A stretch of DNA of 64,000 nucleotides, from positions 1-64,000 of the forward strand of contig JAAXHL010000007.1 of the NCBI GenBank assembly GCA_012270865.1, read 5' to 3'. Origin of the DNA: Candidatus Poribacteria bacterium (lineage in GTDB: Bacteria > Poribacteria > WGA-4E > WGA-3G). Positions within the stretch are counted from its first letter, which is position 1. Every line of letters starts with the position of its first letter. Shown piece by piece: positions 15,931 to 39,936 of the stretch. A model generated the notes under the pieces. It made no database searches. It was given only the letters and a program-made list of their open reading frames with translations, and was not told where the DNA came from. A program made the position numbers and the translations under genes.

Positions 15931-17127
15931 ATGCAAGGTGGACTCGAACGCGCCACAGGCGAGAAGATGGTCCTCAACTTCGGTCCGCAACATCCCGCAA
16001 CACACGGCACCCTCCGTATCGTGTTAGAACTTGATGGCGAATCCATTTTGAAGGCGACACCGCATGCCGGTTATCTGCATACCGGGTTCGAGAAACTCGG
16101 TGAACACTTGGATTACAACCAGTATATTGTTGTGACCGACCGAATGAACTATCTTTCACCATTGTCCAACAATTTCGGGTATGTCCTTGCTGTTGAACAA
16201 CTGATGGGCATCGAAGTCACGAAGCGGTGTCAATACATCCGTCTTTTAATGGCGGAACTCTCACGCATCGCGGACCATTTGCTATGGTTAGGAACAGCTG
16301 CCCTCGACTTAGGGGCATTTTCAGTATTTCTCTACAGTTTCCGCGAACGTGAGAAATTGTATAGCATCTTTGAAAAAACGACCGGCGCTCGGTTGACGAC
16401 AAGTTACACACGCGTCGGCGGTGTCCTCCGAGACCTCTACGATGGATGTGAGGAAGATGTCCGACAATTCCTCAGCAATTTCCCGAAGGCACTAAAAGAG
16501 ACCCATACACTGCTCACAAAAAATCGGATCTGGATGGATCGCACGAAGGGTGTCGGCCCCATTTCAGCGGATGAGGCAGTTAACTACGGATTAACGGGAC
16601 CCTGTCTCCGAGCCACCGGCATAGCGCATGACATACGCAAAGTTGAACCCTATTCCAGCTACGATGAAGTAACCTTCGACGTACCCGTCGGAACCAACGG
16701 GGATGCCTACGACCGATACCTCGTCCGGATGGAGGAGATGATTCAGAGTTGCGGCATCGTTACCCAAGTATTAGATAACATGCCTGACGGACCCGTCAAC
16801 CTTGAAGATAACAAGGTTACCATGCCAAACAAGTCCGATGCTTATGGGCATATTGAGGGATTGATTCATCACTTTAAGGTTGTTATGGATGGACACGGCG
16901 TGCAACCACCGAAAGGTGATCACTATTGTGCAACCGAATCACCAAACGGTGAACTCGGATTCTATATCGTTAGTGATGGCAGCGGCACCGCCTATCGTAT
17001 TCGTATCCGTCCACCGAGTTTCTTCCACTTCCAAGCGTTACCGCACATGTTGGAAGGCGGAATGGTTTCTGACACTGTGGCTGTTTTGGGAAGCCTGAAC
17101 GTCATCGCCGGAGAATTAGACCGGTAA
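15931..17127 (+). CDS. nuoD: NADH-quinone oxidoreductase subunit D
   Basis: NuoD (49-kDa type) forms the quinone-binding pocket with NuoB. The 398-aa protein has the QHPATHG motif at 20-26, including the His thought to contact the quinone head group, and the hydrogenase-like C-terminus (LGSLNVIAGELDR). A clear AAGGAG precedes the ATG at 15931, unlike other genes that follow heptamer arrays here. Confidence 0.96.
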   Translation: MQGGLERATGEKMVLNFGPQHPATHGTLRIVLELDGESILKATPHAGYLHTGFEKLGEHLDYNQYIVVTDRMNYLSPLSNNFGYVLAVEQLMGIEVTKRCQYIRLLMAELSRIADHLLWLGTAALDLGAFSVFLYSFREREKLYSIFEKTTGARLTTSYTRVGGVLRDLYDGCEEDVRQFLSNFPKALKETHTLLTKNRIWMDRTKGVGPISADEAVNYGLTGPCLRATGIAHDIRKVEPYSSYDEVTFDVPVGTNGDAYDRYLVRMEEMIQSCGIVTQVLDNMPDGPVNLEDNKVTMPNKSDAYGHIEGLIHHFKVVMDGHGVQPPKGDHYCATESPNGELGFYIVSDGSGTAYRIRIRPPSFFHFQALPHMLEGGMVSDTVAVLGSLNVIAGELDR

Positions 17128-17161: not shown

Positions 17162-17503
17162 ATGGAACTCAAAGGCATTATGCTTTTCGTCAAAGACATG
17201 AAAACTGTCATCGCATTTTATAGGGACGTTATCGGATTAGTACCAGACGAAGACCAGCCGTTCCCAGAAAATCGGTTTTTCCGTTTTAAGGCAGGGGCTT
17301 GCACATTGTGTCTCCATAGTGCCAGCAAACCCAACGAAGGCAGACAAAAACTGATGTTTCACGTTGAAAGCGTCAGTGCTGTTCATCAGCACATAAAATC
17401 GAAAGGGAAGCGATTACGGAAACTTGAAAATAGCGATGGGCATGCCATTTTCGATATCCGCGACCCAGAAGGCAACCGCATTCAGTTTTACGGGGACTAT
17501 TGA
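17162..17503 (+). CDS. VOC (glyoxalase-type) family protein
   Basis: A 113-aa single-module protein of the vicinal oxygen chelate superfamily. It shows the betaalphabetabetabeta pattern: [20 protein letters not shown] at the N-terminus, [13 protein letters not shown] in the middle, and [17 protein letters not shown] at the end, where a Glu/Gln metal ligand usually sits. Substrate unknown; the family includes lyases, dioxygenases and antibiotic-binding proteins. AGGAG precedes the ATG. It lies 34 nt after nuoD in the operon direction. Its C-terminal 50 codons are duplicated at 17981-18142. Confidence 0.8.
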
Positions 17504-17564
17504 TTTTGGGCATTTTCTCACAAAGATAGATAAAGTAATTTTGAGGGAAGTGGGCTTAAATACC

Positions 17565-17768
17565 ATGAAACTAAAAGTTGTTATTCACAAGGCTGAAGAA
17601 GGCGGATATTGGGCGGAAGTGCCATCACTCGCCGGTTGTGCTACACAAGGCGATACTTTTGAAGAATTACTCGAAAACATCTATGAAGCAATTGAAGGAT
17701 ATTTATCTGTAGATGTTAGTGATATAAAAATCGCAGAAGATGATAGAGTGATGGAGATAGCTGTTTGA
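17565..17768 (+). CDS. hicB: HicB-type antitoxin
   Basis: The 67-aa protein matches short HicB-like antitoxins: [20 protein letters not shown] followed by [16 protein letters not shown], a degenerate RNase-H-like fold that blocks HicA. The frame is open further upstream to 17424, but that part overlaps the VOC gene out of frame, so the ATG at 17565 is taken. There is no C-terminal DNA-binding domain, so autoregulation would need another route. The stop overlaps the TTG start of hicA. Confidence 0.85.
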
Positions 17769-17971
17769 AAGCATTAACCGGTAAAGCGTTTTGCCGATTA
17801 TTAGAAAAGCACAATTGGCAGTTAAAGCGAATCAAAGGCAGCCATCATATTTATGCCAAAGATGGCGTTCCGGAGCGGATAGTCGTGCCTGTCCACGGTA
17901 ATAAAACGCTCAAACGCGGGTTGCAGAAATATTTTATGAAAATCGGTGGAATAGAAGAAAGTGAATTGTAG
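17765..17971 (+). CDS. hicA: HicA-type mRNA interferase toxin
   Basis: A 68-aa basic protein with the double-stranded RNA-binding-like fold of HicA. The expected active-site His lies in KGSHHIY (His27 or His28), and [12 protein letters not shown] is the usual second half. The TTG start overlaps the hicB stop by 4 nt, with GGAG upstream. HicA cleaves mRNA until neutralised by HicB. The order here is antitoxin then toxin. Confidence 0.85.
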
Positions 17972-17980
17972 CAGCATTAA

Positions 17981-18142
17981 CTTGTCTTTCAGGTTGAGAG
18001 CGTTAATGCCATTCATCAGCAACTGAAGTCGAAAGGAAAGCGATTGCGGAAACTGGAGAACAACGATGGACATGCCATTTTCGATATCCGCGATCCAGAA
18101 GGCAACCGTATTCAGTTTTACGGGGACTATTGCGTTAATTAA
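17981..18142 (+). pseudogene. Truncated duplicate of the VOC gene
   Basis: This frame encodes 53 residues, the first 50 of which match the C-terminal part of the protein at 17162-17503 at 43 of 50 positions (for example [12 protein letters not shown] and [19 protein letters not shown]). The first 60 or so codons are missing and the place they would occupy holds hicBA. No start codon is present, so it is a broken duplicate. It ends 14 nt before the next gene. Confidence 0.85.
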
Positions 18143-18156
18143 TAGAGGAGTTTACG

Positions 18157-18660
18157 ATGCAAAACATAAACATCAATAGACTAAAAACCGTCCTGACTTT
18201 CACCGTCATTGCGAGTTGTCTGTTTTTCAGTGCTTGCACTGCGCTACAGGAAGCACAACAAAAACGGGAAGCACGGATGATGGAAAAAAGAAAACAGGCA
18301 AACTTCGCTCAAAACCCGTTCATTGAAGTCAACGATACAACATTTGACAATCTCGTGTTGGAGTCCGAGTTGCCTGTCGTCGTAGCATTCGGGGCAGAGT
18401 GGTGAGGGGCATGCAAGGCCATGGAGCCAACGCTCGCTGCAGTTGCAGCAGAAAACCGAGAAACATTTACTGTTGTGAAAGTAGATGTTGACACTGCTCG
18501 GCAAAACTCTCAACGCATATTAGCCTACAAGCAGTCCGGAGTTATCCCTGAATATTCTGTGTTCAAAGACGGGAACGTCGTTGCACATTTTACGGGATCG
18601 AAATCGAAGACCGATTTCCTCCAAGAAGTTTTGGGATCAATAAACGCACAGATAAATTGA
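18157..18660 (+). CDS. Thioredoxin-like lipoprotein, candidate selenoprotein (in-frame TGA at 18403)
   Basis: Read through one TGA, the frame gives a 167-aa protein. It has a signal sequence with lipobox-like FSAC (Cys27), a linker, and a thioredoxin fold: FDNLVLESELPVVVAFGAEW, then TGA, then GACKAMEP, TVVKVDVDTAR and a cis-Pro loop (GVIPEYSVFKDG). TGA occupies codon 83, exactly the first Cys of the WCxxC active site; Cys86 is intact. The 84 codons after TGA are clean coding sequence to a normal TGA stop. The best explanation is selenocysteine; a nonsense mutation of TGC is the alternative. GAGGAG precedes the ATG. It lies between the VOC remnant and nuoE and would act at the cell envelope. 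Confidence 0.7.
18406..18450 (+). promoter_or_regulatory. Possible SECIS hairpin downstream of the in-frame TGA
   Basis: GCTGC (18436-18440) and GCAGC (18445-18449) form a 5-bp stem with loop AGTT, starting 35 nt after the TGA. Known bacterial SECIS elements lie just 3' of the UGA and usually carry a G early in the apical loop; distance and loop fit, but the stem is short. CATG (18410-18413) with CATG (18420-18423) is a weaker alternative. Confidence 0.35.
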
Positions 18661-18692: not shown

Positions 18693-19217
18693 ATGTCAGA
18701 TGAACGCATTCAGATCGAAACGCCTTTCGCGTTTAACGAAGAAAATCAACGTGAATTCGACGACTTGATAGGGCGGTATCCTATTAAGGAAGCAGCCATG
18801 CTGCCAACGCTCCATCTTGCACAACGGCAGGCGGGCTATATCACACCTGCTGTCATGAAGTATGTCGCAGAACTACTTGAAGTCACCCTCATGAAGGTCA
18901 AGGATGTCGTCACATTCTATCCGATGTTCTTTGAAGAACCCGTCGGCGAGTACGTCATTCGCGTATGCCATACGCTACCTTGTGCATTGCGGGATTGTAA
19001 AGTGGTACTGGAGCATCTCAAAGCAAAACTCAATACGGATACCGCTTCCGAAACGAATCTCGCGAAAGGCACAACTGCTGACGGTAAATTTACCCTCATG
19101 AAGGTGGAATGCCTCGCCTCGTGTGATGTCGCACCTGTTATCATGATCAATGACGATCTCTATAAGAATTTGACCCCAGAAAAGGTCGATGAAATCTTAT
19201 CGGGGTTGGGAAGTTAA
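18693..19217 (+). CDS. nuoE: NADH-quinone oxidoreductase subunit E
   Basis: NuoE carries the [2Fe-2S] cluster N1a of the NADH-oxidising module. The 174-aa thioredoxin-like protein has the four ligands Cys92, Cys97 (CHTLPC), Cys140 and Cys144 (CLASC). It partners NuoF. It starts 32 nt after the thioredoxin-like gene; a short A-rich leader with AAAGGAAAA precedes the ATG. Confidence 0.95.
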   Translation: MSDERIQIETPFAFNEENQREFDDLIGRYPIKEAAMLPTLHLAQRQAGYITPAVMKYVAELLEVTLMKVKDVVTFYPMFFEEPVGEYVIRVCHTLPCALRDCKVVLEHLKAKLNTDTASETNLAKGTTADGKFTLMKVECLASCDVAPVIMINDDLYKNLTPEKVDEILSGLGS

Positions 19218-37615: not shown

Positions 37616-38848
37616 TTAAAAAGATTCAATCAGGTCAACAGCTGCAGTCAAACCATCTTCTGCTTCTATCTGTTTTCCTAAGACCTGTGCCTGTGCTGTC
37701 ATAGAAGGCGTTTCCAAGACCTGCTGAAGCCGTTTCGCCAAACGTTCAGCGGTAAGATTCCGGCGACGTAGATGCCGTGGCGCAACGCCTAAGTCCGATA
37801 GACGTTTTCCCCAATACGGCTGATCCGCATGATGCGCGACAACAACAGAGGGGACTCTCGCACGACATGCCGAGGCAGTCGTCCCAGCACCACCGTGATG
37901 CACGACGCAACTCCCCTGCGGAAACAGCCATTGATGCGGGATATATTCCGCACAGTAGATGTCCGATAACGTCTCCGGCGTGCCGAGTTGCCCCCAACCC
38001 GCTTGGATAATCGCACGTTGCTTTACTTTTCTAACAGCATCTATCAAAATTTCGGTTGTCTCACGTCCATTGGAGCCTCCCATAGACCCAAACGTGATGA
38101 TAATCGGTGGTGGACCCGCCTCCAAGAAATCGACAAGTTCAGGCGGCGGATCGTAAGCAGGGGACGCGAGATGCCAGACACCCGTGAATTTGTGGTTCGG
38201 AGGAAAATCAGCTGGTGGACAAAGCACTGGAGATGCAGCAATCAGGTTCAGATGTGGTGAGTACATCCCTTCTAATGCTACTGTCTGCCTTGATTTTCCG
38301 CCGACAGACTTAATAAATTGATTAAACAGGGCATCTATACTCGGTGCAAGCCGAAGCTGCACCAACTTCCACACGATAGCGTTAAATGTTCGTCCCCAAT
38401 TCGGAAACGGGTAGGGCGCGAAGTCTAAGGATTTGATGAACCCCGGACAATACGTCACAGTGAACCACGGGATCCCGTTCTGGATCGCAGCCTCCTGTCC
38501 GGGAATATCCACTGAATGACAAATCGCTATATCAAACCCTTTCATAGCGGTCAAACAATTCTGATACCACTGTCCACCGCGACGCACGATCCCCTCTTCC
38601 ACGATGAGTCGCAGCATCGCAGTCGGGTCGCGCTTCGGGATAATAGCATCCATCGCCGTGTGAAACTCCGCCAAATCAAAAGCGACACCTATCTCGTAGT
38701 ATTCCGCGCCAACCTCAAGAATCTTATCTTTATAGAGTGCTGGTGAACAGACCCGTACCTGATGCCCGCGTTCAAGCAAACGTTCCGACAGTGCTAAAAC
38801 CGGATAGACATCTCCCGTTGAACCCCAGCAGACGACAACAATTTTCAT
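37616..38848 (-). CDS. UGT-type (GT1/GT28-like) glycosyltransferase
   Basis: A 410-aa nucleotide-sugar-dependent glycosyltransferase. The start KIVVVCWGSTGDVYPVLALS (2-21) is the usual acceptor-domain opening, and the C-terminal donor site contains IPHQWLFPQGSCVVHHGGAG (about 320-339) with the HGGAGT motif, followed by PYWGKRLSDLG. It resembles MGT/sterol or flavonoid-type glucosyltransferases; the acceptor is unknown. The frame extends 13 codons upstream, but the ATG at 38848 overlaps the stop of the next gene by 4 nt (ATGA), typical of coupling, so it is taken as the start. Confidence 0.85.
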   Translation of the reverse strand: MKIVVVCWGSTGDVYPVLALSERLLERGHQVRVCSPALYKDKILEVGAEYYEIGVAFDLAEFHTAMDAIIPKRDPTAMLRLIVEEGIVRRGGQWYQNCLTAMKGFDIAICHSVDIPGQEAAIQNGIPWFTVTYCPGFIKSLDFAPYPFPNWGRTFNAIVWKLVQLRLAPSIDALFNQFIKSVGGKSRQTVALEGMYSPHLNLIAASPVLCPPADFPPNHKFTGVWHLASPAYDPPPELVDFLEAGPPPIIITFGSMGGSNGRETTEILIDAVRKVKQRAIIQAGWGQLGTPETLSDIYCAEYIPHQWLFPQGSCVVHHGGAGTTASACRARVPSVVVAHHADQPYWGKRLSDLGVAPRHLRRRNLTAERLAKRLQQVLETPSMTAQAQVLGKQIEAEDGLTAAVDLIESF

Positions 38849-39936
38849 TTTTCTTCTGCCTCTATCGTTGATGTGGTTGCATCCCAAACCGGTTCAATAG
38901 GAAGTTTTTTCGTGCATTCCCATCCAATTTTACACTTATGCGCGCTACAGGGCCAGCACGGCATATCCCGCCGTACGATAGATGCGTTTTCGCTCAACGG
39001 ATGCCACGCCACATGATCTGTCGGACCGAAAATCGCCACCATCGGTACATCCAAAGCCGCAGTGAGATGCATCGGACCGGAGTCATTACAGACCACCAAA
39101 TCACAACAGGAGAGTAGCGCACCCAACTCACGGATTGATTCTGGCGCGTGAGAAATAGCACGGGCTTCCATTGCCGCTTGGATATTCCGTACCAATTCCG
39201 CTTCTTCAGGACCCCGTAAGAGAAGTATTGCCGCGTTGTACTGATGTGAAAGCCTATCAGCGAGTTCAGCGTACCGCTTTTCCGGCCAACGTTTATCAAA
39301 CGAACTCCCACCCGGATGAATACCGATGAGGAACGTATCGGGCGTGAGACCCCACGAGGTGAGATGTGCTTTGGCGGCGGCAATCTCATCAGAGGACAAG
39401 TGGAATACGAGTTTCCGTTTCCCTTCACCTTTGCAAATTAAGCGTACCAGTTCCAAATTCCTGTCAACTTCATGGGTTTCGCCCTTTCGGTATTGACCGC
39501 GCCATGTATGTGTGAGGGTGGATCTAAAACGTTTCTGATAACGTCCCAATCGGTACGTAGCACCGCAGAGAAATGCGACGAGATGTGACCACATTGCCGT
39601 CTGCATAGCGACAACGAGTTGAAACCGCTCACGGCGCAACTGGCGGTAGAATTGGAGTTGTGCTCGGATTCCCCGGTGCTTACCTTTACGATCAAAAATG
39701 AGGATCCGATCCACGTCGGGATTACCGGCTAACACCGGTGCATTGAGCGGACGCGCCAATACCGTTATCTCCGCTGATGGATAACTCTCCCTTAACAGTG
39801 CGATTGCCGGTGTTGAGTTTAACAAGTCACCGATACCATCAACCCGAATGACAAGTATTTTATTGATGTTAGGAAGCGTGTTGTCTGGTTCGCGATCCGA
39901 AACTTGCATTGTGGAAGTCTGCCCACCGGATAACAT
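38845..39936 (-). CDS. GT9-family glycosyltransferase (heptosyltransferase-like)
   Basis: A 363-aa second member of family 9. It has KILVIRVDGIGDLLNSTPAI (about 25-44), IGIHPGGSSFDKRWPEKRYA (about 210-229) and LVVCNDSGPMHLTAALDVPM (about 274-293), then IFGPTDHVAWHP. A C-terminal CWPCSAHKC motif parallels the Cys-rich segment of the other GT9. Translation is coupled to the downstream UGT-type gene. A second in-frame ATG 9 codons into the gene could be the start. Together the three transferases suggest an outer-membrane or surface glycan pathway. Confidence 0.87.
   Translation of the reverse strand: MLSGGQTSTMQVSDREPDNTLPNINKILVIRVDGIGDLLNSTPAIALLRESYPSAEITVLARPLNAPVLAGNPDVDRILIFDRKGKHRGIRAQLQFYRQLRRERFQLVVAMQTAMWSHLVAFLCGATYRLGRYQKRFRSTLTHTWRGQYRKGETHEVDRNLELVRLICKGEGKRKLVFHLSSDEIAAAKAHLTSWGLTPDTFLIGIHPGGSSFDKRWPEKRYAELADRLSHQYNAAILLLRGPEEAELVRNIQAAMEARAISHAPESIRELGALLSCCDLVVCNDSGPMHLTAALDVPMVAIFGPTDHVAWHPLSENASIVRRDMPCWPCSAHKCKIGWECTKKLPIEPVWDATTSTIEAEEK

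Follow-up and report, generated by a model that had tools for sequence, protein, structure and literature searches.

Here we have examined the reading frame at positions 18157-18660 of the window (the whole stretch of 64,000 nucleotides that was analysed, from an uncultured member of the phylum Poribacteria), and we conclude that it almost certainly encodes a selenoprotein: a thioredoxin with a predicted lipobox leader, whose redox pair is Sec83-Gly-Ala-Cys86 and in which the UGA at 18403 is read as selenocysteine (Sec). We infer Sec insertion itself, as well as the export and lipidation of the protein. According to the mechanism which we propose, SelB and Sec-tRNA(UCA) would read UGA 18403 as Sec, and an AGUU-loop hairpin 35 nt downstream would direct the insertion. 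The export leader would place the enzyme outside the cytoplasm, anchored through its lipobox, and Sec83 would be the attacking residue of a fast periplasmic thiol-disulfide reductase. The features of the gene are as follows.

18157-18660, + strand: gene of the predicted Sec-containing thioredoxin-like lipoprotein, 167 aa with Sec83; stop codon TGA at 18658-18660
18403-18405, + strand: putative Sec codon UGA at the first Cys of WCxxC (W-U-G-A-C), the position that it takes in 73/73 collected TGA-thioredoxins
18434-18451, + strand: predicted upper hairpin of a bSECIS, with a 5-bp core at 18436-18449 and an AGUU loop at 18441-18444
18157-18237, + strand: putative export leader with a lipobox-like FFSAC (Cys27), read from the sequence
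18144-18150, + strand: ribosome-binding site AGAGGAG, nearly identical in the orthologue loci L009/L010

The frame and its in-frame TGA

From the ATG at 18157 the frame runs through 82 sense codons, meets TGA at 18403-18405 right after Trp82 and continues for another 84 sense codons; our re-reading of the sequence agrees with the preliminary description that this TGA alone breaks the frame. In a profile search the read-through product matched the Pfam family Thioredoxin (PF00085, E=1.2e-19, residues 56-157) at 70.6 bits against a cut-off of 23.5, and the match crosses the TGA. C83, C86 and P131 are invariant in the alignment, P131 being the proline of the cis-Pro loop. The earlier claim that the 84 codons past the TGA are normal coding sequence including this loop is confirmed. 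The TGA had also been assigned to the codon of the nucleophilic Cys of WCxxC, and it does align with Cys in the Cys homologues. Against the TrxA equivalog model TIGR01068 the protein scored 66.3 bits, below the curated cut-off of 96.8, and by its profile scores it is a predicted member of the thioredoxin family but no TrxA equivalog. No selenoprotein-specific model reached its cut-off in an NCBIfam search of the protein. The AlphaFold2 model has a thioredoxin fold (domain pLDDT mostly 76-91) after a long low-confidence N-terminal helix; it was built from an input of 4 sequences, and the five models differ much, with mean pLDDT from 76 to 45. Foldseek matched this model to E. coli thioredoxin at E about 1e-9. 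When all TGA-ended ORFs of the window were scanned, only the frame at 18157 combined a long ORF upstream of its TGA with a clear coding signal on both sides. The next UxxC-looking TGA candidate, at 39472, lies on the strand opposite the long ORF 38845-39936 and is an antisense artefact.

Two lipobox candidates were found by eye, FFSAC at residues 23-27 and IASC at 18-21, and with such a leader the protein is probably anchored in the envelope. The same genome encodes an unrelated lipoprotein-like protein (L008, G000:C37:1122-1253) whose leader and EAQQ-R-EAR stretch resemble the N-terminus of the window protein and whose C-terminal part carries a metallopeptidase-like HELTHAF motif. The likeness of the two leaders suggests leader shuffling.

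Orthologues with 92% and 88% identity occur in two other species, and the TGA is kept in all three species; neither orthologue has any other lesion. The contigs of L009 and L010 seem to be those already present as G072:C96 and G069:C33, so the set represents 3 species and not 5. Upstream of the AGAGGAG site the DNA differs between the window gene and L009/L010. Among the three orthologues dN/dS was 0.060-0.232 before the TGA and 0.083-0.253 after it, and purifying selection acts on both sides of this codon.

Thioredoxin matches are present in 82 of the 85 genomes of the phylum, and in the genus of the window many carry one in-frame TGA. We collected 73 distinct thioredoxin genes of the phylum with a TGA, drawn from the best-scoring matches and thus not sampled at random or exhaustively, and in every one of them the TGA occupies the codon of the first Cys in CxxC (motifs UPFC, UGFC, UIYC, UGAC, UPSC and others). 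The other 17 collected genes have TGC or TGT: 15 are Poribacterial with CGPC, one is Bathyarchaeal with CGPC and one is a secreted form with FCGWC. An alignment of homologues, which had been proposed as a check, has the orthologues keeping TGA without other damage and the Cys homologues carrying Cys at this position.

Selenocysteine machinery and the downstream hairpin

If the UGA is to be read as Sec, is the machinery there? The sel genes, for which the preliminary description had proposed a search, were all found in the same genome: selA (601 bits), selB (360 bits), selD (362 bits) and, adjoining selB, a tRNA-Sec gene with the anticodon tca (UCA), which scored 76 bits against a cut-off of 47. 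The genome assembly has 5.28 Mb and is 93% complete with 8.5% estimated contamination. Since tRNA-Sec was found in 73 of the 85 genomes of the phylum, the Sec trait belongs to the lineage despite this estimate. Four congeners with TGA-thioredoxins gave no tRNA-Sec match, which incomplete MAGs and strict filters may explain. The selD gene (L031, G000:C52:30850-31773) has an in-frame TGA of its own at KCAGU, and its product is presumably a Sec-containing selenophosphate synthetase; this is the usual place of Sec in SelD.

A hairpin 31 to 44 nt downstream of the TGA had been pointed out, and it is indeed present at 18436-18449 (GCTGC-AGTT-GCAGC). In the transcript, GCUGC-AGUU-GCAGC, the loop lies 35 nt past the UGA, and loop, spacing and core (AGUU, 35 nt, 5 bp) fit the bSECIS model. 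The rules which we applied are those of PMC13188914 (Fig. 2) and include an MFE of <= -7.5 kcal/mol; the window region reaches -16.9 kcal/mol and the hairpin alone about -5.1. When the 53 nt of the window itself were folded, the result was no better than for shuffled sequences (z -0.18), and the hairpin alone was not exceptional among synonymous recodings. Synonymous change in the stem is low across the 3 orthologues, but not significantly so (p=0.28). Across 19 WUGxC genes, 97% of the stem cells are paired, and 3 of 7 pairs show compensatory changes, counts which are inflated by relatedness and include some changes that also alter amino acids. The covariation score of the two-helix structure in these 19 genes was higher than in any of the 500 shuffles or of the slid controls. 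The mean best bSECIS-like hairpin was -5.4 kcal/mol for TGA genes, near 0 for TGC genes and -1.7 for TGT genes. The proposal of a SECIS element is thus in agreement with the published loop and spacing rules and with covariation in relatives.

Hairpins of other kinds occur elsewhere in the family. The UPxC group has an AGUU loop at 23 nt, and one of its pairs covaries (C-G, U-G, A-U, U-A); the TUPFC group has a GGU loop at 23 nt. Most members of the UIYC group (FUIYC/SUIYC/RUIYC; L004, L005, L043, L066, L072, L080, L082-L084, L091 and L093) yield no more than weak hairpins when the bSECIS rules are applied, and it may be that the recoding signal of this subgroup differs or extends further. The three classes (AGUU/35 nt, AGUU/23 nt and GGU/23 nt) are natural test cases for the rules of SelB recognition.

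Genomic surroundings and alternative readings

The gene lies within the cluster encoding complex I, with the following neighbours.

15931-17127, + strand: nuoD (49 kDa subunit of complex I), upstream neighbour; PF00346, E=2.8e-115
17162-17503: VOC/glyoxalase gene in the nuoD-nuoE gap of the window
18693-19217, + strand: nuoE, downstream neighbour; PF01257, E=1.3e-49

Just upstream of the selenoprotein gene, at 17978-18131, the window holds a partial copy of the VOC gene, which covers 154 nt of its C-terminal part with 86% identity. Between the two copies, at 17546-17970, a HicB-like antitoxin ORF (end at 17768) is followed by an ORF at about 17770-17970, which we take from its sequence to be HicA-like. 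The ORFs which L009/L010 have in this gap showed no such pair.

Could the protein, if a genuine selenoprotein, serve complex I, acting on NuoE/NuoF or in NADH-linked redox? All three orthologues do sit between nuoD and nuoE, ending 32 nt before nuoE. However, the gene is present in only 3 of 38 congeners, the length of the gap ranges from about 490 to 1470 nt, VOC, HicB-like and small ORFs occupy it in other genomes, and none of 27 other nuoE loci matched the gene (8 of the 27 do not reach nuoD). The predicted export would moreover put the protein on the opposite side of the membrane from NuoE/NuoF. The gap looks like a variable insertion spot inside the nuo cluster, and the location is therefore weak evidence for a function in complex I; such a role is not supported, and we consider it improbable. 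The preliminary description had seen a UxxC oxidoreductase encoded inside the complex I cluster: its Sec reading stands, but the location is a weak clue to function.

The rarity of the gene among congeners and the partial VOC duplicate in the same gap would also suit a pseudogene, in which a nonsense mutation had killed a Cys thioredoxin. Such a history is nevertheless very hard to reconcile with a TGA common to three species that have no other lesion, with dN/dS values that are low both before and after it and with the use of the same codon in 73 homologous genes, and we give it very little credence. An error of sequencing or assembly, with TGC or TGT read as TGA, is still harder to believe: three separate genomes carry the TGA, which is thus no base-call error of a single assembly, and five further paralogues in the window's own genome have TGA at the same codon. 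Neither do we see any real prospect that the UGA stands for some other amino acid, through a reassigned code or a suppressor tRNA. A changed genetic code had already been judged unlikely, and TGA indeed serves as the stop of normal genes here, the present gene (at 18658) among them; the complete Sec pathway with tRNA-Sec(UCA) also argues against it.

Predicted exported Sec-thioredoxins and their proposed function

The window protein appears to belong to a family of exported Sec-thioredoxins that is specific to this lineage. Together with the five paralogues mentioned above, its genome has at least six Sec-thioredoxins. Three architectures can be distinguished: (i) a lipobox leader and thioredoxin domain (WUGxC), where the layout places the window gene; (ii) a signal peptide, dockerin type I and thioredoxin (e.g. 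UIYC, UPFC); and (iii) a signal peptide, dockerin, Ig-like repeats and thioredoxin (UPFC, UPSC). The matches to dockerin, Big_5 and thioredoxin exceed the Pfam cut-offs, the leaders were judged by eye, and the relatives look exported, either as lipoproteins or as signal-peptide proteins. Cys forms of class ii (FCGWC, FCIFC) occur in genus g2. In a quick tree, which rests on few columns, the exported forms split from TrxA and show at least three Sec/Cys changes among themselves; the window gene groups with its two orthologues (starred), and the deeper placement of this group is loose.

In several genomes a Cys lipoprotein thioredoxin with CPFC and a long acidic EPEPIDPEP linker lies about 2-10 kb from a Sec lipoprotein with WUGFC (L134, L135, L136, L142, L143), and the two are a natural Sec/Cys pair. 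The window's own genome has pairs of adjacent genes, at L064 and L063 (C7 and C165), for a dockerin-Trx(U) and a dockerin-Ig repeats-Trx(U) protein, both predicted exported selenoproteins, and this pairing recurs in many congeners, e.g. L073, L078, L080, L094 and L099.

Thioredoxins with UxxC (PF00085) are an established selenoprotein family, found in Geobacter, Anaeromyxobacter, Treponema denticola and Carboxydothermus (PMC13188914; PMC1794560). The window protein shares with them the Pfam family and the position of Sec as the first residue of CxxC, but the Poribacterial members carry a lipobox, or a signal peptide with dockerin and Ig-like domains, while TrxA of the same genomes stays a Cys protein. 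In the genome of the window this TrxA (G000:C97:12005-12328) is 45% identical to the window protein in the thioredoxin domain and has CGPC, without an export leader or a SECIS-like hairpin. Selenoproteins of periplasmic type have also been listed, namely DsbA-like, DsbG-like, thiol:disulfide interchange protein and UGC-TlpA (PMC13188914; PMC1794560). These likewise are thioredoxin-fold enzymes with Sec, from families whose members are usually exported, but they are other families; the window protein scores best with TIGR01068 and PF00085, not with DsbA or TlpA. The TsoB rhodanese/DsbD fusion-like selenoprotein (NF045694) gave a weak match through its thioredoxin domain (E=1.1e-5); the score was 24 bits against a cut-off of 805, and the window protein has no membrane or rhodanese part.

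What might the exported enzyme do? A single DsbD is encoded in the genome, its C-terminal domain carrying WCVAC, and no match to DsbA, DsbB or VKOR was found in this 93% complete genome. Taken together with the predicted export, this points to a reductase fed by DsbD. The window protein would most likely be such a reductase, with Sec as the attacking residue and DsbD as its putative partner. Re-reduction would run through the C-terminal WCVAC domain of DsbD, and the targets may be oxidised protein thiols, or electrons may pass on to peroxide or methionine-sulfoxide reductases. Alternatively, the protein could be an oxidase or isomerase resembling DsbA or DsbC. Exported thioredoxin folds can do either, and where DsbA, DsbB and VKOR go unmatched another enzyme may handle disulfides. 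However, no oxidant partner was found in the genome, DsbD is present, and the Sec form of thioredoxin has been described as a reductase (PMC13188914). We regard this alternative as unlikely, though a more serious competitor than those discussed above, and prefer the DsbD-fed reductase.

A literature search, which was incomplete, found no earlier report joining Poribacteria with a selenoprotein, and earlier notice is possible; the text of the 2026 review (PMC13188914) has no Poribacteria, dockerin or lipoprotein. Two papers mention Poribacteria as well as selenocysteine, and one, on the analysis of CAZyme domains, mentions dockerin as well as selenoprotein. What appears to be new is the phylum, the genus-wide expansion and the exported dockerin, Ig and lipoprotein architectures, whereas the chemistry and the decoding were already known. 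We tentatively hypothesize that Poribacteria run an extracytoplasmic Sec thiol system, in which several exported Sec-thioredoxins per genome (lipoproteins, dockerin- or Ig-fused) would work with DsbD, in the absence of DsbA, DsbB and VKOR, and take over the disulfide reduction or isomerisation that Cys-based Dsb proteins perform in other organisms, possibly on cell-surface dockerin-cohesin assemblies. It is an idea to which we would give rather less than even chances. Gene callers truncate these proteins at the active site unless TGA is recoded. The findings add a phylum with near-universal Sec decoding and with exported Sec-thioredoxins of unusual surface-type architecture, and as Sec and Cys homologues coexist in one family, it becomes testable why Sec is retained in extracytoplasmic proteins.
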